From NCBI RefSeq assembly GCF_023573145.1, contig NZ_CP097635.1, positions 1,240,001 through 1,304,000 on the forward strand: a stretch of 64,000 bases of DNA, given 5' to 3'. This document shows, in pieces, positions 3,127 to 62,100 of the stretch. The stretch comes from Aquincola tertiaricarbonis (lineage in GTDB: Bacteria; Pseudomonadota; Gammaproteobacteria; Burkholderiales; Burkholderiaceae_C). A program made the translations under genes and the position numbers. Each line of letters begins with the position of its first letter. The first letter of the stretch is position 1. The notes beneath the pieces were generated by a model. The model made no database searches and was not told the origin of the DNA. It saw only the letters and a list, made by a program, of their open reading frames with translations.

Positions 3127-3200
3127 GGTTCGCCCCCAAGCTCGCTGCGCTCGCGCCCCCCCGAGGGAGAGCTCAGTCCCTTGGGGCGGCCCGGCGGGAC
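3127..3200 (+). repeat. 74-bp palindromic element, copy 1 (tandem)
   Basis: Core lies between TGA at 3124-3126 (the stop codon of the gamma-glutamyltransferase gene) and TGA at 3201-3203. It has the family features: GCCCCCAAG, the direct repeat GCTCGC-TGC-GCTCGC, a C-run/G-run hairpin, then TCAGTCCC pairing with GGGACTGA across a GC-rich loop containing CTTGGGGC. Same strand orientation as the gene it follows. Confidence 0.85.
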
Positions 3201-3203
3201 TGA

Positions 3204-3277
3204 GGTTCGCCCCCAAGCTCGCTGCGCTCGCGCCCCCCCGAGGGGGAGCTCAGTCCCTTGGGGCGGCCCTGCGGGAC
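3204..3277 (+). repeat. 74-bp palindromic element, copy 2 (tandem)
   Basis: Second copy directly adjoining copy 1, with TGA 3201-3203 shared between them and TGA 3278-3280 at its far end. It differs from copy 1 at a few positions only. The pair forms a 77-bp tandem repeat in the gap after the gamma-glutamyltransferase gene. Confidence 0.85.
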
Positions 3278-3294
3278 TGACCCTCGCAGGGCCT

Positions 3295-20782: not shown

Positions 20783-21745
20783 TTAGTTCAGGAAGCGCGT
20801 GTCGGCCAGCTTGGTCAGGTCGGGAATCTGCTTGATGATGCCCACCTCCAGCAGCAGGTCGGCCGCTTCCTTGGTGAACTGCGGGTGCTCACTGGCGAAG
20901 AACTTCTGGTTGGCCGCGCGGTCCTGCCAGCGCAGGAACTTCTGCGAGTTCTCGAAGGCTTCGCCGCTTTGCTTGACGTCGGCGCCCATGATCTCGTAGC
21001 TCTTCTTCGGGTCGGCCTTGATCAGGTCCAGCGCGTCGAAGTAGGCATCGGCCAGGCCCTTGGCGGCCTTGGGGTTGTCGGCCAGGAACTTGGGCGTGCA
21101 GCCGAAGGTGTCCATCACCATCGGGTAGTCCAGCGTGGTGGCGATGATCTTCCCGGCCTCGGGCTTGGCGCGCACGCTGCTCAGGTAGGGTTCGTAGGTC
21201 ATGCCGGCGTCGATGCCGTCGGTGCCGGCCAGGAAGGCGTTAGCCACCGGCTGCGGCTCCAGCGTCAGCACCTTCACGTCCTTGATGGACATGCCGTTCT
21301 TCTTCAGGATCCAGGCGGCGCCGAAGTAAGGCGCGGTGCCCGGTGCGCTGGCGGCCAGGGTCTTGCCCTTCAGGTCGCTGATCTTGTTGATGCCGGGCTT
21401 GACCACCAGGCCGTCGGCACCGTAGCTCTTGTCCATCTGGAAGATCTGGGTGCCGGCCACGCCGTTGGCGTTCCAGACCACCCAGGTTTCCACCGTGGTG
21501 GCCGCGCACTGGATGTCGCCCGAGGCCAGGGCCAGGTGGCGGTCCTTCTGCGGGATCTTCTTGATGGTGACGTCCAGGCCGTGCTTCTTGAACAGCCCCG
21601 CCTCCTTCGCGAGCGTGAGCGGCGCAAAGCCCGTCCAGCCCGAGATGCCGACGGCGACCTTGGTGTCCTGGGCATGGGCCAGCGTGGCAGCACTGGCGCA
21701 GGCCAGGGTGGCGACGAGGCGGAAGGCGGAGGCTTTGAACGTCAT
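20783..21745 (-). CDS. ABC transporter periplasmic substrate-binding protein (SsuA/NMT1-like)
   Basis: 320 residues from the ATG at 21745; its Lys-containing hydrophobic signal ends at 'LAHAQD'. The mature start 'VAVGISGWTGFAPLTLAKE' and 'ASGDIQCAATTVETW' are typical of the SsuA/TauA/NMT1 group. It is the second gene of the hutH operon, 26 bp after hutH. The pocket-lining residues are not predictable by eye; a histidine-pathway ligand is inferred only from the operon. Confidence 0.9.
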   Translation of the reverse strand: MTFKASAFRLVATLACASAATLAHAQDTKVAVGISGWTGFAPLTLAKEAGLFKKHGLDVTIKKIPQKDRHLALASGDIQCAATTVETWVVWNANGVAGTQIFQMDKSYGADGLVVKPGINKISDLKGKTLAASAPGTAPYFGAAWILKKNGMSIKDVKVLTLEPQPVANAFLAGTDGIDAGMTYEPYLSSVRAKPEAGKIIATTLDYPMVMDTFGCTPKFLADNPKAAKGLADAYFDALDLIKADPKKSYEIMGADVKQSGEAFENSQKFLRWQDRAANQKFFASEHPQFTKEAADLLLEVGIIKQIPDLTKLADTRFLN

Positions 21746-21771
21746 GATGCTCGCTTGGGAGTGAAGAGGGA

Positions 21772-23397
21772 TCAGGCCGGAATCCACAGCGCCGGCAGAG
21801 CCGGCAGCGTTCGCAAGATGCGCGCCAGTGCACCGCTGTGCACCAAGGCCGTGGCACGCTCGATGTCGGGCGCCAGGTAGCGGTCGACGTCGATGCTGGG
21901 GCAGTGGCTGCGCAGCAGCGCATGCACCTCTTCCAGCGCGGCCGAGCTTTGCAGCGGCCGCAGGAACTCGATGCCCTGGGCCGCGGCCAGCAGTTCGATG
22001 CCCAGGATGTGCGCGGTGTTGGCGATCATGGCCTGCAGCCGCCGGGCCGCGAAGGTGGCCATGGACACATGGTCTTCCTGGTTGGCCGAGGTGGGCAGGC
22101 TGTCCACGCTGGCCGGGTGCGCCAGCGACTTGTTCTCGCTGGCCAGCGAAGCGGCGGTGACGTGGGCGATCATGAAGCCGCTGTTCAGGCCCGCATTAGC
22201 GGTCAGGAAGGGCGGCAGCCGCGACACGCCGCTGTCGATCAGCATCGCGATGCGGCGCTCGGCGATGGCACCGACCTCGGCAATGGCCAACGCCATGCCG
22301 TCGGCCGCCAGGGCCACGGGCTCGGCATGAAAATTACCGCCCGAGATCATGGTGCCCCCCAGCTCGCTGCGCTCGCGGCCCCCCGAGGGGGCGCGACCCG
22401 GCTCCGGGCGGCCGAGCGCCGGGTCCATCGCCCCGTCTTCCGCGAACACCAACGGGTTGTCGGTCACCGCATTGGCTTCCCGCACCAGCACCAGCGCCGC
22501 ATGGCGCAACTGGTCTAGACAAGCACCCACCACCTGCGGCTGGCAGCGCAGGCAGTACGGGTCCTGCACCCGGTCGTCCCCTTCCGCGTGCGAGGCGCGG
22601 ATGGCGCTGCCCTGAAGCAGTGCACGGTAGTACTGCGCCACGTCGATCTGGCCGGGCTGGCCGCGCAGCGCATGGATGCGCGGATCGAATGGGCCGTCGC
22701 TGCCGCGGGCCGCGTCGATGGTGAGCGCGCCGATGACCAACGCCGATTCCAGCACCGGCTCGAACGCCAGCAGCGCATGCAGCGCCAGCGCGGTGGAGGT
22801 CTGCGTGCCGTTGATCAGCGCCAGGCCTTCCTTGGCGGCCAGCTTCAGCGGCGCGATGCCGGCCTGCTGCAGCACCGGCAGCGCTGGGCGGCGCTCGCCG
22901 TCCACCAGCATCTCGCCTTCGCCCATCAGCGCCAGCGTCATGTGGGCCAGCGGCGCCAGGTCGCCCGAGGCACCCACCGAACCCTGGCTGGGCACGTAGG
23001 GCACCAGGCCGGCATTGAGCACCGCCAGCAGCGTGTCGATGACCACCGGCCGCACGCCGGAATGGCCGCGCGCCAGGCTGGCGGCCTTGGTGGCCAGCAT
23101 CAGCCGCACCACCGGCGGCTGCAGCGGCGCACCCACGCCCACGCTGTGCGAGCGGATGAGGTTGAGCTGCAGCGTGTCGAGATCGGCTTCGCTGATGCGC
23201 TGGTTGGCCAGCTTGCCGAAGCCGGTGTTCACGCCGTAAACCGGCGCGTCGCCGGCCGCCGCCGACTGCACCACGGCGGCGCTGGCCTGCACGGCCGCCG
23301 CCGCATGCGGGGCCACGGTGAGGGTGACGCCGCCGGCATGCACCGCCTGAAGCGTCTCGAGCGTCAGGCGCCCAGGGTCAAGTTCGATCGCAGTCAT
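21772..23397 (-). CDS. hutH: Histidine ammonia-lyase with an in-frame 26-residue insertion
   Basis: 541 residues; HutH removes ammonia from L-histidine to give urocanate in the cytoplasm. The electrophilic MIO cofactor forms from Ala143-Ser144-Gly145 in '[11 protein letters not shown]', and other family blocks ('[11 protein letters not shown]', '[11 protein letters not shown]', '[10 protein letters not shown]') are intact. The usual length is about 510-515. The excess is residues 324-349, between '[10 protein letters not shown]' and '[10 protein letters not shown]', and is encoded by a copy of the 74-bp palindromic element (antisense) plus a 3-bp duplication. It starts an operon with ABC transport genes, divergent from hutC with an operator between. 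Confidence 0.93.
22351..22425 (+). repeat. 75-bp palindromic element, copy 3, inside hutH
   Basis: Same 5' half as the intergenic copies (GGTG, C-run, AGCTCGCTGCGCTCGC, C-run/G-run hairpin) but the 3' stem is GACCCGG paired with CCGGGTC. CAT occurs directly at both ends (22348-22350 and 22426-22428). The total of 78 bp keeps hutH in frame and encodes a segment including '[12 protein letters not shown]'. Confidence 0.88.
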
Positions 23398-23407
23398 CCT
23401 GCAGACT

Positions 23408-23437
23408 CTACTTGTCTATACAACTTCAGGCAAGTAG
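23408..23437. promoter_or_regulatory. HutC-type operator between hutH and hutC
   Basis: The 49 bp between the divergent hutH and hutC starts hold TTGTCTATACAA (23412-23423), close to the TTGTATATACAA-like palindrome bound by HutC repressors. A wider inverted pair CTACTTG (23408-23414) and CAAGTAG (23431-23437) surrounds it. Position and match suggest HutC represses both operons until urocanate binds; the role is inferred. Confidence 0.6.
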
Positions 23438-23446
23438 GATCTGCTC

Positions 23447-24172
23447 ATGCCGATCAAGACCACCTCCACCGCCGCCCCGGCCCCGTACGCCCGGGTCAAA
23501 CAGTACCTCAAGCGCGAGCTGGCCAAGGGCCGCTGGACACCCGGCACGCTGATGCCGTCGGAGGCGGAGCTGGTGCAACGCTTCAACGTCAGCCGCATGA
23601 CGGTGAACCGCGCGCTGCGCGAACTGCAGGCTGAAGGCCTGGTCGATCGGGTGCAGGGCTCGGGCACCTACGCGGCGCAGCTGCACCGGGTGTCGTCCAC
23701 GCTCACGATACGCGACCTGCAGGAAGAGATCCAGGCGCGCGGCCACGAGCACAAGGCCGTGGTGCACCTCAAGCGCGAAGAGGCGGCTTCGCCGGGCCTG
23801 GCGCAGCAACTGGGCATGCAGGCCGGTGCGCCGGTGTTCCATACCTTGATCGTGCACCACGACAACGGCGTGCCGCTGCAGTGCGAAGACCGCTACGTCA
23901 ACCCCGCCTGCGCCCCTGGCTACCTGGACGTCGACTTCACCCAGATCACGCCCACCCACTACCTGCTGGACGTGGCGCCCACCTGGGAGGCGCACTACGC
24001 CATCGAGTCGGCGGCCCCCACGGCAGAAGAAGCCCGGCTGCTGGGCATCCGCCGCGACGAGAGCTGCCTGATCATCGTGCGCCGCACCGAGAGCCGCGGC
24101 ACCGGCATCACGCTGGCGCGTCTGGTGCACCCGGGCAGCCGCTACGTGATCGAAGGCCATTTCCGGCCCTGA
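23447..24172 (+). CDS. hutC: Histidine utilisation repressor (GntR/HutC family)
   Basis: 241 residues. An N-terminal GntR winged helix ('SEAELVQRFNVSRMTVNRALRELQAEG' type residues 40-66) is followed by a UTRA ligand-binding domain (about 85-235), the HutC layout; urocanate is the usual inducer. It opens the hutC-hutD-hutG-hutF operon, with one base between its stop and the hutD start. Operator-like TTGTCTATACAA lies just upstream, so autoregulation is likely. Confidence 0.92.
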   Translation: MPIKTTSTAAPAPYARVKQYLKRELAKGRWTPGTLMPSEAELVQRFNVSRMTVNRALRELQAEGLVDRVQGSGTYAAQLHRVSSTLTIRDLQEEIQARGHEHKAVVHLKREEAASPGLAQQLGMQAGAPVFHTLIVHHDNGVPLQCEDRYVNPACAPGYLDVDFTQITPTHYLLDVAPTWEAHYAIESAAPTAEEARLLGIRRDESCLIIVRRTESRGTGITLARLVHPGSRYVIEGHFRP

Positions 24173-24173
24173 C

Positions 24174-24752
24174 ATGGCCGTGCAACTGATCGACCTGTTC
24201 CGCCAGCCGCCCGAGCCCTGGCGCAACGGCGGTGGCCACACCCGCGAGCTGCTGCGCCGCCCGGCCGCGCCCGGTACCGACTGGGCGCTGCGCATCAGCG
24301 TGGCCGACATCGACCGCGACGGCGACTTCTCGGCCTTTGCCGGCGTGCAGCGCTGGTTCGCAGTGCTGGAAGGCGCGGGCGTGGAACTGAGCCTGCCCAG
24401 CGGACGCCAGCGCCTTTCGGCCAGCAGCTCGCCGCTGGCCTTCGACGGCGCCGACGCGCCCGGCTGCCGGCTGCTGGACGGGCCCACCCGAGACCTCAAT
24501 CTGATGGTGCAGCGCGGCCGCGGCACCCTGCTGCCGGTGCAACCGGGCGTGGAGTGGGCTGAACCTTTCGAGGCCCGCGGGCTCTTCAGCCTGAGCGGCG
24601 GCCTGTGGCACCCGCGCGAAGGCCGGCCGGTGGTGGTGGCCCCCTTCACGCTGCTGTGGACCGACGACGGCACGCCCTGCCGCTTCGAGCCGGTGGAAGC
24701 ACCGGCCGATGGGCGGCCTTGCGGCTACTGGATCGGGCATGCGGCCTGCTGA
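24174..24752 (+). CDS. hutD: HutD-family protein
   Basis: 192 residues, a cupin-like beta-barrel protein of the HutD/Ves family found in histidine-degradation operons. Typical 'PWRNGGGHTREL' near residue 16 and 'WALRISVADIDRDGDFSAFAG' regions are present. Its biochemical role is unsettled; in Pseudomonas it has been proposed to limit hut activity, perhaps by binding an intermediate. It is sandwiched tightly between hutC and hutG, which supports the assignment. Confidence 0.88.
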   Translation: MAVQLIDLFRQPPEPWRNGGGHTRELLRRPAAPGTDWALRISVADIDRDGDFSAFAGVQRWFAVLEGAGVELSLPSGRQRLSASSSPLAFDGADAPGCRLLDGPTRDLNLMVQRGRGTLLPVQPGVEWAEPFEARGLFSLSGGLWHPREGRPVVVAPFTLLWTDDGTPCRFEPVEAPADGRPCGYWIGHAAC

Positions 24753-24777
24753 ACCTGCCGCGCCAACGGAACCTGCC

Positions 24778-25587
24778 ATGAGCGACGACACCCCTTACAC
24801 CCTGCACCGCGGCCACAGGCCGCTGCTGGTCAGCGTGCCGCACGCCGGCCGCGAGATCCCGCCCACGCTCATCGACCGCTACCTGCCGCGCGTGCTGAAC
24901 GTGGAAGACACCGACTGGCACCTCGACCAGCTGTACGACTTCGTGCGTGAGCTGGGCGCCAGCCTGCTGGTGCCACGCTACAGCCGCTACGTGGTCGACC
25001 TGAACCGGCCGCCCGACAACCAGCCGATGTACCCGGGCGTCAACAACACCGAGCTGTGCCCCACCCGCTTTTTCACCGGCGACCCGCTGTACCGCGAAGG
25101 CCAGGCACCCACGCCCGAGGAGGTGCAGCTGCGCGTGGGCCGCTATTGGCGGCCCTACCACGACGCCCTGGCCGCCGAGCTGCAGCGCCTGCGCGCCGAA
25201 CACGGCCATGTGGTGCTGTTCGATGCCCACAGCATCAAGAGCGAGCTGCCCTGGCTGTTTGAAGGCACGCTGCCGGCCCTGAACCTGGGCACCGCCAACG
25301 GCACCGCCTGCGACCCCGGGCTGCGCGATGCGCTGGCCGCGGTGATGGCCGCCCAATCCGTGCACAGCCATGTGGTGGACGGCCGCTTCAAGGGCGGCCA
25401 CATCACCCGCCACTACGGCCAGCCGGCGCAGCAGGTGCATGCGGTGCAGCTGGAGATGTGCTGGCGCTGCTACCTGCAGGAAAGCACCCCCGCCGAGTGG
25501 GACGCGCTGCGCGCCGGCGAGATCACCCCGCTGCTGCGCCAGCTGGTGCAGACCATGCTGGACTGGCAGCCGCCGGCAGCGCGATGA
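24778..25587 (+). CDS. hutG: N-formylglutamate deformylase
   Basis: 269 residues from the ATG at 24778. HutG hydrolyses N-formyl-L-glutamate to formate and glutamate, the last step of the five-step histidine pathway. Family blocks include 'LVSVPHAGREIPP', 'VVDLNRPPDN', 'YHDALAAEL' and 'LFDAHSIKSELPWLF', the last two bearing probable zinc-site His and Asp residues. Its stop overlaps the hutF start (ATGA at 25584-25587). An upstream in-frame start at 24709 would overlap hutD and is rejected. Confidence 0.92.
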   Translation: MSDDTPYTLHRGHRPLLVSVPHAGREIPPTLIDRYLPRVLNVEDTDWHLDQLYDFVRELGASLLVPRYSRYVVDLNRPPDNQPMYPGVNNTELCPTRFFTGDPLYREGQAPTPEEVQLRVGRYWRPYHDALAAELQRLRAEHGHVVLFDAHSIKSELPWLFEGTLPALNLGTANGTACDPGLRDALAAVMAAQSVHSHVVDGRFKGGHITRHYGQPAQQVHAVQLEMCWRCYLQESTPAEWDALRAGEITPLLRQLVQTMLDWQPPAAR

Positions 25588-26972
25588 AGAGGCGCACCAC
25601 TTCCTGGTGGGCGCCGCGCGCCTGGCTGCCCGGCGGCTGGGCCGATGGCGTGCTGCTGCAGGCCGATGCCAGCGGCCACTGGTCGGCCGTGACGCCCGAC
25701 GTGCCCACCCCGCCGGAGGGCGCCCAACGCCTGCCCGGCCCGGTGCTGCCCGGCCTGGTGAACGCCCACAGCCATGCCTTCCAGCGCGCCTTCGCCGGCC
25801 TGGCCGAACGGCGCGAGGCCGATGCCGACGACTTCTGGGGCTGGCGCGACCGCATGTACCAGGTGGCGCTGCGCATCACGCCCGCGCAGCTGCAGGCCAT
25901 TGCCGCCCACCTCTACATCGAGCTGCTGCGCGGCGGCTATACCCAGGTGTGCGACTTCCACTACCTGCAGCACGACGAGCAGGGCCGGCCCTATGCCGAC
26001 GACCCGCTGGCGATGATCTGGGCGCTGGCCGATGCCGCGGCCACCGCCGGCATCGGCCTGACGGTGCTGCCGGTGCTGTACGAGCGCGCCGGCTTCACCC
26101 AGCCCACGCTGCGGCCCGACCAACGCCGTTTTGCCACCACCGCCGACAGCGTGTGGCAGGCCTGCCAGCGCATCGGCGCGGCCGGCCGGCCGCTGCTCAA
26201 TGCCGGCGTCGCGCTGCACTCGCTGCGCGCGGCGGCGCCCGAGTCCATCCACCGGCTGCGGCAGCTGGCCGAAGGTTTTGCCGGCCCGGTGCACATCCAC
26301 GTGGCCGAACAGACGGCCGAGGTGGACGACTGCCTGCGCGCCACCGGCCAGCGGCCCATCGAATGGCTGGCCGCACAAGGCCTGCTGGACCCACGCTGGC
26401 AGCTGGTGCATGCCACCCACACCGTGCCGACCGAGATCGATGCGGTGGCCCGTAGCGGCGCGGCGGCCGTCATCTGCCCCAGCACCGAAGCCAACCTGGG
26501 CGACGGGTTGTGCGACCTGCCGCGCTGGCTGGCCAGCGGCGCGTCGCTGGCGCTGGGCTCCGACAGCCACGTGACCCGCGCCTGGCGCGAAGAGCTGCGG
26601 CTGCTGGAGTACGGCCAGCGGCTGGCGCTGCGCCAGCGCAACGTCAGTGCCGCGCCGGCCGAAGGCCAGCCGGCCACCGCGCAGCGGCTGTGGCAGCGCA
26701 TGCAGGCCGGCAGCGGCGCGGCCGCCGGCCTGGGCGCCTGGGGCCTGCAGCCGGGCGCCCGTGCCGACCTGCTGGTGGTGGACGAAGCCGATGCCGCGCT
26801 GCGCGGCATACCGCCCAGCCACCTGCTGGATGCGCTGGTGTTCTCCAGCCCCGGACGGCCCTGGCACAGCGTGATGGTGGCCGGCCAGTGGGTGGTGCAG
26901 GCGCATCGCCACCCGCAGGCGGAGGCGGTGGCCGACCGCTTTGCCGAGGTGATGGCGCAACTGTGGCGTTGA
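25584..26972 (+). CDS. hutF: Formimidoylglutamate deiminase
   Basis: 462 residues of the amidohydrolase superfamily. HutF converts N-formimidoyl-L-glutamate to N-formyl-L-glutamate and ammonia, feeding HutG. The metal-binding 'NAHSHAFQRAFAGL' near residue 55 distinguishes HutF from HutI. Later ligands lie in 'HIHVAEQ', 'VHATHT' and 'ALGSDSHV'. Presence of HutF with HutG indicates the five-step route, but hutU and hutI, which supply its substrate, are not in the window. A copy of the 74-bp element starts at the base after its TGA stop. Confidence 0.92.
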   Translation: MKRRTTSWWAPRAWLPGGWADGVLLQADASGHWSAVTPDVPTPPEGAQRLPGPVLPGLVNAHSHAFQRAFAGLAERREADADDFWGWRDRMYQVALRITPAQLQAIAAHLYIELLRGGYTQVCDFHYLQHDEQGRPYADDPLAMIWALADAAATAGIGLTVLPVLYERAGFTQPTLRPDQRRFATTADSVWQACQRIGAAGRPLLNAGVALHSLRAAAPESIHRLRQLAEGFAGPVHIHVAEQTAEVDDCLRATGQRPIEWLAAQGLLDPRWQLVHATHTVPTEIDAVARSGAAAVICPSTEANLGDGLCDLPRWLASGASLALGSDSHVTRAWREELRLLEYGQRLALRQRNVSAAPAEGQPATAQRLWQRMQAGSGAAAGLGAWGLQPGARADLLVVDEADAALRGIPPSHLLDALVFSSPGRPWHSVMVAGQWVVQAHRHPQAEAVADRFAEVMAQLWR

Positions 26973-27046
26973 GGTCGGCCCCCAAGCTCGCTGCGCTCGC
27001 TGCCCCCCAAGGGGGCGCTCAGTCCCTTGGGGCGGCCCGGCGGGAC
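26973..27046 (+). repeat. 74-bp palindromic element, copy 4
   Basis: Core between TGA 26970-26972 (the hutF stop codon) and TGA 27047-27049, in the same orientation as hutF. The 3' stem is TCAGTCCC with GGGACTGA, and the loop contains CTTGGGGC complementary to the 5' GCCCCCAAG. Confidence 0.85.
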
Positions 27047-27095
27047 TGAGACTCTGACGGCGCCCGCCGCCGTGTGTGGCACAGTGGCGCCCCTC

Positions 27096-44046: not shown

Positions 44047-44121
44047 TGCGCCCCCAGCTCGCTGCACTCGCGGCCCCCCAAGGGGGCGCGTTCAGCCTTG
44101 GGGGCGGCCCGGCGGCTGAAC
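44047..44121 (+). repeat. 75-bp palindromic element, copy 5
   Basis: Core between CGT at 44044-44046 and CGT at 44122-44124. The 5' half has GCGCCCCCAGCTCGCTGCACTCGC; the 3' stem is GTTCAGCC with GGCTGAAC, unlike the other copies but still complementary. It ends one base before the rarA stop (antisense to rarA). Confidence 0.82.
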
Positions 44122-58882: not shown

Positions 58883-58888
58883 CGCTCA

Positions 58889-58963
58889 GTCTCGCCGGGC
58901 CGCCCCAAGAGACTGAGATCCCCCTTGGGGGGACGCGAGCGCAGCGAGCTCGGGGGCATCACC
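58889..58963 (-). repeat. 75-bp palindromic element, copy 6 (tandem)
   Basis: On the minus strand, the core lies between TGA (plus 58964-58966) and TGA (plus 58886-58888). The 3' stem is TCAGTCTC with GAGACTGA, changed at one pair from copies 1, 2, 4 and 8. It shares its upstream TGA with copy 7. Confidence 0.83.
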
Positions 58964-58966
58964 TCA

Positions 58967-59041
58967 GTCTCGCCGGGCCGCCCCAAGAGACTGAGATCCC
59001 CCTCGGGGGGACGCGAGCGCAGCGAGCTTGGGGGCACCACC
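58967..59041 (-). repeat. 75-bp palindromic element, copy 7 (tandem)
   Basis: Begins at the base following the TGA stop of the sensor kinase gene (plus 59042-59044), same orientation as the kinase, and ends at TGA (plus 58964-58966), joined to copy 6. Confidence 0.83.
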
Positions 59042-61915: not shown

Positions 61916-62027
61916 GCGGCTCTCCCTTGTTATTCGAAGGAGCCGAGAGCTTCGGGGCAGGCGGTAAAGCAGCGCCCGCGCCCGCGGTGAAGAAGTGTGA
62001 AGCGAGCGTGGCATCTGCAGCAGCTCA

Positions 62028-62100
62028 GTCCCGCCGGGCCGCCCCAAGGGACTGAGACCCCCTGCGGGGGGAGCGAGCGCAGCGAGCTTGGGGCGCCACC
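62028..62100 (-). repeat. 73-bp palindromic element, copy 8
   Basis: On the minus strand, the core starts after the TGA stop (plus 62101-62103) of the lipoprotein gene and ends at TGA (plus 62025-62027). Same orientation as that gene. The stem is TCAGTCCC with GGGACTGA. Confidence 0.83.

Follow-up and report, generated by a model that had tools for sequence, protein, structure and literature searches.

Short repeats translated within conserved proteins are known from Rickettsia, where one report describes RPEs of 105-146 bp sitting in protein-coding genes, and an RPE-bearing gmk product that is active with a changed substrate affinity (PMC2229807). REPs are likewise described inside the open reading frames of many bacteria, Thauera included, and recB carries them at roughly corresponding positions in two Xanthomonas species; according to that source, loops are tolerant sites and REP ends can supply stop codons (PMC3733652). 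The same source places REPs tagged with GTAG or CGTC mostly between convergent or same-direction genes, near 3' ends (PMC3733652). In E. coli, REP elements lie within 15 nt of stop codons, as a further paper discusses (PMC12306157). In-frame insertion of a REP or RPE is therefore known already in Rickettsia and other bacteria, and the case in the histidine ammonia-lyase HutH described here is a variant of it. The original prediction drew the Rickettsia parallel, which is apt, although such insertions are not confined to that genus: one of the bacteria with in-frame REPs, Thauera, is a betaproteobacterium. Among the matches listed from openly licensed PMC papers, no title or abstract start names the element family or the HutH inserts.

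Like the RPEs, the insert in hutH is a dispersed palindromic repeat standing in frame in conserved proteins, with the gene apparently kept. It is set beside them by description, and differs in host order, in the length of its core (75 bp against 105-146 bp) and in that a single loop of one enzyme appears to have been entered in several genera. It shares with the GTAG/CGTC-tagged REPs a position mostly near gene 3' ends, with some copies inside open reading frames; unlike them, it shows neither tag fixed at an end, has a two-part structure of covarying arms and a mostly constant loop block, and recurs over several genera. Length variation is also seen in other variable HutH loops, but these have no match to the element profile.

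The window analysed here is a stretch of 64,000 nucleotides (G000:C1:1240001-1304000) from the host genome, G000, which comprises 7.11 Mb on 4 contigs (Table 1). The hutH product scores 680.7 bits against TIGR01225 (cut-off 539.15), matches PF00221 as well and is modelled with the HAL fold, identifying it as a member of the HutH family. It is the only full HAL-type match in G000, the two others being short and confined to the repeat-encoded part of the query. Intact hutC, hutG and hutF genes adjoin it, while hutU lies elsewhere (C1:102286-103935).

Table 1. Genes, parts of the hutH insert and further element copies in the window (positions counted from its first nucleotide).
Feature	Position	Strand	Basis
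hutH, histidine ammonia-lyase, 541 aa, insertion-bearing	21772..23397	-	open ORF, TIGR01225, PF00221
hutC, histidine utilisation repressor	23447..24172	+	TIGR02018 above cut-off
hutG, N-formylglutamate deformylase, start codon uncertain	24709..25587	+	TIGR02017 above cut-off
hutF, formimidoylglutamate deiminase, start codon uncertain	25581..26972	+	TIGR02022 above cut-off
Left-junction ATG copy (CAT on +)	22426..22428	-	direct read
Element core, 75 bp; with one ATG encodes residues 325-350	22351..22425	-	direct read, sister alignment
Hairpin 1, left arm, GACCCGGC	22418..22425	-	family arm parsing
Conserved loop block, hutH form GCTCGGCCGCCCGGA	22403..22417	-	79/101 parsed copies are GCCGGGCCGCCCCAA
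Hairpin 1, right arm, GCCGGGTC, full complement of left arm	22395..22402	-	arm parsing
Second palindrome GCCCCCTCGGGGGGC	22378..22392	-	by eye
Conserved tail CGCGAGCGCAGCGAGCTGGGGGGC	22354..22377	-	pattern and family alignment
Right-junction ATG copy (CAT on +)	22348..22350	-	direct read
Two tandem element copies, 3130-3203 and 3207-3280	3130..3280	-	profile search
Element copy, immediately past hutF stop codon	26977..27049	-	profile search
Element copy	44051..44120	-	profile search
Two tandem element copies, 58886-58959 and 58964-59036	58886..59036	+	profile search
Element copy	62025..62093	+	profile search

Read on its own strand, hutH runs through GGGGCG, ATG, the 75-bp core, a second ATG and ATCTCGGG. 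The core plus one CAT makes an insertion of 78 bp, or 26 codons, exactly as the original prediction had counted, and the DNA alignment of the locus with that of G001, a sister species in the same genus, likewise differs by 78 bp. The 26 extra residues follow directly after VFAEDGAM. HutH of G001 is 97% identical before the segment and 96% after it, with the segment itself absent, and the alignment to Pseudomonas putida HAL (1gkm) ends at query residue 322 and resumes at 348 with nothing between. Because the site is empty in this sister, the insertion is lineage-specific; the proposed in-frame interruption of two normal HutH halves is borne out.

The inserted sequence belongs to an abundant repeat family. 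A 27-base tail pattern with at most two mismatches gives 129 matches in the G000 genome and none for the reversed control, so the repeat is not due to chance. An initial genome search with the core gave at least 54 matches at E<=10 (40 of 259 candidates scored), and the loop block with at most one mismatch has 155 matches (89+66; control 0). A profile built from G000 copies, that in hutH included, identifies 106 copies in 703 kb, regions picked partly by best match; over 464 contiguous kb it identifies 12, eight of which fall within the window.

Each element consists, in order, of a variable arm, the block GCCGGGCCGCCCCAA, a complementary arm, a CCCCC/GGGGG palindrome and GCGAGCGCAGCGAGCTTGGGGGC, and is GC-rich and hairpin-forming. 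The length from arm to GGGGGC could be measured in 98 of the 106 copies and is 72 nt in 67 of these; 12 others, in which the middle part is extended, reach 98-103 nt. Each of the six reading frames is free of stops in 51 to 91 of the 98. Arm parsing succeeded for 101 of the 106 copies, and in these the arms pair at 95.0% of positions by Watson-Crick rules, compared with 56.5% in 1000 shuffles (maximum 64.2%). When the 38 different arm pairs are counted once each, 86.8% of positions still pair, and near-complete pairing over so many different pairs indicates strong compensatory change. Copy-specific complementary arms thus surround one mostly constant loop block in G000. The hutH copy has an arm pair of its own, GACCCGGC/GCCGGGTC, and by eye differs from the usual sequence at four positions of the loop block and one of the tail, with no stop codon. 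The description of the insert as a palindromic repeat holds in that it is dispersed and hairpin-forming, but a repeat finder with a minimum of 12 nt detects no inverted repeat in the core, the hairpin arms being 8 bp. RNA stability is not above that of shuffled sequence for the hutH copy (z 0.05) or one other copy (z -1.46), and an Rfam scan of 21700-23450 returns a single chance match outside the insert, leaving the element unmatched. In the sister species, six or more related elements follow one another in tandem at G001:C9:222541-223027, with a spacing of 88 bp. Intergenic copies aligned to G001 are mostly too diverged to give exact element ends.

To assess the setting of the 106 copies, a codon model was applied to flanks of 240 nt; the counts are approximate because the flanks of tandem arrays hold other copies. 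The best coding frames lie on opposite strands at 59 copies, 57 of them convergent. A further 33 have flanking frames on the same strand but in different frames, 12 have the same frame with a stop, and two are in frame and open, a fraction that is not a genome-wide rate because the 703 kb were chosen partly by best match. Among the 85 non-tandem copies (those without another copy after the GGGGGC end), 46 have a reverse-complement stop codon exactly +5 or +6 past GGGGGC, against a stop-triplet background of 1.3% per offset and 7.1% at the highest single background offset. The GGGGGC end therefore sits 4-5 nt behind a gene stop in about half of these copies, one example being the copy at 26977-27049 of the window. 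Of the 46 stops, 42 terminate a frame on the opposite strand that is 55 codons long or longer, compared with 34% of 92 control triplets at +30 to +120. An element edge a few nucleotides past a stop codon recalls the E. coli REPs, from which the family differs in the fixed spacing to an opposite-strand stop. Targeting or selection may be the cause of this spacing.

Being short, high in copy number, hairpin-forming and mainly extragenic near gene ends, the element is a REP in the broad sense. It is also an intragenic in-frame repeat: a dispersed repeat that stands in frame in a conserved protein and is absent from a close relative. Assignment to the RAYT-associated REPs was rejected, as neither their end tag nor a repeat-flanked tyrosine transposase was found. 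GTAG is present in 17 of 106 copies, in the rows examined inside the element before CGAG, and neither GTAG nor CGTC was seen fixed at an end (CGTC by eye). A MITE-type target-site duplication is not supported as a family rule because flanking repeats show no excess: over 65 single copies the mean longest shared string is 3.18 against 3.09 when shuffled, with 92 of 500 shuffles as high. The CAT duplicate noted in the original prediction is real at hutH, with no corresponding excess of flanking repeats across these copies.

G000 has a single Y1-transposase-like gene (L141, C2:569642-570364), whose H-x-H motif is altered (NQVHLL, compared with NHVHLL in G022) and whose Pfam score is below the cut-off; its neighbours presumably correspond to dgt and gltB, which they resemble. 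Such a gene is present in 12 of 12 genomes searched, with the motif altered in several. The loop block, allowing at most one substitution, occurs in none of 14 Y1-like loci of about 3.7 kb. Given the sub-cut-off score, the altered motif and the lack of a nearby loop block, this gene is unsupported as the mobiliser and was set aside; it looks like a domesticated RAYT relative, and no mobilising enzyme for the element was found.

The other of the two open in-frame copies (C1:1583893) lies in the interior of an AMP-binding enzyme with PF00501 and PF13193 domains (L191, G000:C1:1583474-1585150). In the alignment with the G001 ortholog, query residues 3-138 and 162-543 are covered by overlapping stretches of DNA, so that the segment between them has no counterpart there. 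A single TGA occurs within the G001 match, at residue 381 of 382 and thus at the end of it. In G000 the enzyme continues at its C-terminus into another element copy, which provides the stop codon.

Recurrence in HutH is not visible from a single window and needs many genomes. Of 83 HutH loci, two without the motif (G021 and G271) were removed, giving a loop set of 81, in which G238 and L031, apparently one genome, are counted once. The element profile matches six of the 81 loop DNAs, from five genera, each in plus-strand orientation: G138 (E = 9e-15), G000 (3e-12), G298 (4e-11), G238 (3e-7), G341 (8e-6) and G018 (3e-4). The remaining 75 are unmatched. A seventh loop, from G028 in a sixth genus, contains by eye a tail-like stretch ending in GGGGGC, with no profile match. 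Six or seven of 81 is not a prevalence, because the 81 rows favour genomes most like the query. The case is not restricted to this strain, since elements that match the profile occupy this loop in four other genera, and in a fifth if the G028 remnant is counted. In six of the seven insert-bearing genes the right junction falls at a common codon (GGGGGC-NNN-NNN-NNN-Ser), while in G341 the GGGGGC end is one codon nearer and in a different reading frame. The frame is otherwise largely shared, giving GRPxPxRAPSGG or close to it. Two species of genus g138 bear inserts of unequal length.

Insert-free relatives from the same genus are available for most of these genes: G001 for G000; G117, G419 and G361 for G298; G433 for G138 and G238; and G022 for G341. 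In the last pair, four stretches of DNA that precede the loop are 96-98% identical, with the insert in G341 only. Insert-free G208 pairs with G018 on a quick HutH tree, built with the loop removed, in which 24 of 78 inner forks are open. Mapping the insert on this tree requires five changes (six rows) or six (seven rows, with G028), at least four of which are forced by supported branches. Shuffled labels cluster as tightly in 57 of 500 and 94 of 500 cases, respectively, so the inserts are not clearly clustered. The AU test rejects a single insert-bearing clade (p 2.6e-4 for seven rows; 2.8e-50 for six rows without G341); it was run on 70 of the 81 rows after 11 distant ones had been removed, with the group defined by the trait. 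The changes could be gains or losses; gains would be the simpler reading, because the short EDGAM loop recurs in distant relatives and most of the 81 rows are free of the element.

In an even sample of the family, 172 of 399 genomes have HutH at E<=1e-100. The junction pattern is matched with at most one mismatch in 11 of the 399, six of these without mismatch; of the five one-mismatch genomes, the four that were read, all except G237, have no element in the loop, and the pattern misses G341. The loop block is matched in 16 of 16 genomes, below the control in G419 and a few-fold above it in G012 and G018, and resident elements are a plausible source of the HutH inserts. Counted from after NP, the HutH loop has 7-18 residues in 73 of 81 rows. 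The same loop in G150 (L268) has 31 residues with an acidic tandem repeat (SDTGETGDTGETGEQGG) and no match to the element profile. The strongest part of the finding is that one enzyme loop appears, on the sequence evidence, to have been invaded several times by such elements.

Comparison with G001 gives a hutH dN/dS of 0.070, indicating purifying selection. Synonymous and nonsynonymous changes number 37 and 3 on the G000 branch and 39 and 13 on the G001 branch, with 30 unpolarised; the signal spans the whole G000 branch, so part of it may predate the insertion. An AlphaFold model from 54 sequences has pLDDT 88.1 and pTM 0.90 and superimposes on P. putida HAL (1b8f) with TM 0.89/0.95. Residues 322-341 have pLDDT below 50, covering 325-341 of the insert (325-350), as do stretches 141-143 and 433-436. 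The model thus predicts that the HAL fold is kept intact and that most of the insert forms a low-confidence loop on it. The insert ends six residues ahead of the position that corresponds to F329 of P. putida HAL, a residue whose mutants have been crystallised according to structure titles, and catalysis could therefore be affected.

It is very probable that a dispersed, non-coding, REP-like hairpin element entered the HutH loop after the split from the sister species, was translated and was tolerated. The element stands just before the SGGNFHAEP block and would be translated as a largely disordered 26-residue loop; tolerance would follow because such a loop would leave the core fold and presumably the activity intact. 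An in-frame fate would suit the element, whose length from arm to GGGGGC is usually 72 nt and in which every frame is open in roughly 50% of copies or more. The naturally variable length of the HutH loop would account for repeated entry, and a resemblance of the loop sequence to the preferred landing site of the element is a possible added cause. We consider it possible, though somewhat doubtful, that the hutH loop is itself such a preferred site, entered repeatedly in a single orientation and, in most cases, at a single codon as a protein-internal decoy of the gene-end target; the mechanism would then normally dock the GGGGGC end at a constant distance of 4-5 nt from a stop codon.

An impaired enzyme or decaying pseudogene, surviving only because the insertion is recent, would be consistent with 26 extra residues near the active-site block and with an insertion present in the host and absent from its sister. 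We regard this as improbable: the frame is open, dN/dS is low with fewer nonsynonymous changes on the G000 branch than on that of the sister, no second HAL gene is present and hutC, hutG and hutF are intact alongside, with hutU elsewhere. Two species of genus g138 carrying inserts of unequal length, and a hutH copy that by eye departs from the usual loop block and tail without containing a stop, also argue against recent decay. If the insert were instead useful, the disordered proline/glycine/arginine-rich loop having been domesticated and repeatedly selected, for example for regulation, stability or oligomer contacts, its occurrence in several genera, with one orientation in the six profile matches and largely the same frame, would be explained. 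Against this stand the 75 unmatched loops, the different frame of G341, the short remnant to which G028 is reduced and the low model confidence of most of the insert, and we give this explanation similarly little weight.

Spread of insert-bearing hutH segments across genera by recombination or gene transfer would fit G018 and G238, which share a 62-residue loop without being sisters on the tree and have identities of 0.89 across the insert, 0.88 just upstream and 0.75-0.81 further upstream. The raised identity next to the loop is not diagnostic, because this stretch is conserved in all nine pairs compared. The long form in G018 and G238 may nevertheless be linked by transfer. As a general account transfer is unlikely, since the inserts of G000, G298, G138 and G341 differ in arms or length, G000 and G341 pair with insert-free sisters, and G298 and G028 fall among insert-free rows, at weakly supported forks. 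That the segment is an ancestral HutH loop lost by most relatives is hardly credible. The identical junction codon in six of seven insert-bearing genes would agree with a common ancestry, but copies of the inserted repeat are dispersed through the host genome, the arms and lengths of the inserts differ and one origin would need several exact losses. Although parsimony alone cannot separate gain from loss, the single clade is rejected.

Repeated entry of a tolerated REP-like element would make the HutH loop a natural replicated experiment, in which a selfish repeat has entered one enzyme loop several times, with insert-free sisters as controls. If the loop is a preferred landing site, insert-bearing HutH would be an enzyme variant produced over and over. 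The system would make it possible to test directly whether inserts of this kind cost the host, benefit it or have no effect, and whether short repeats have sequence-specific landing sites within genes.
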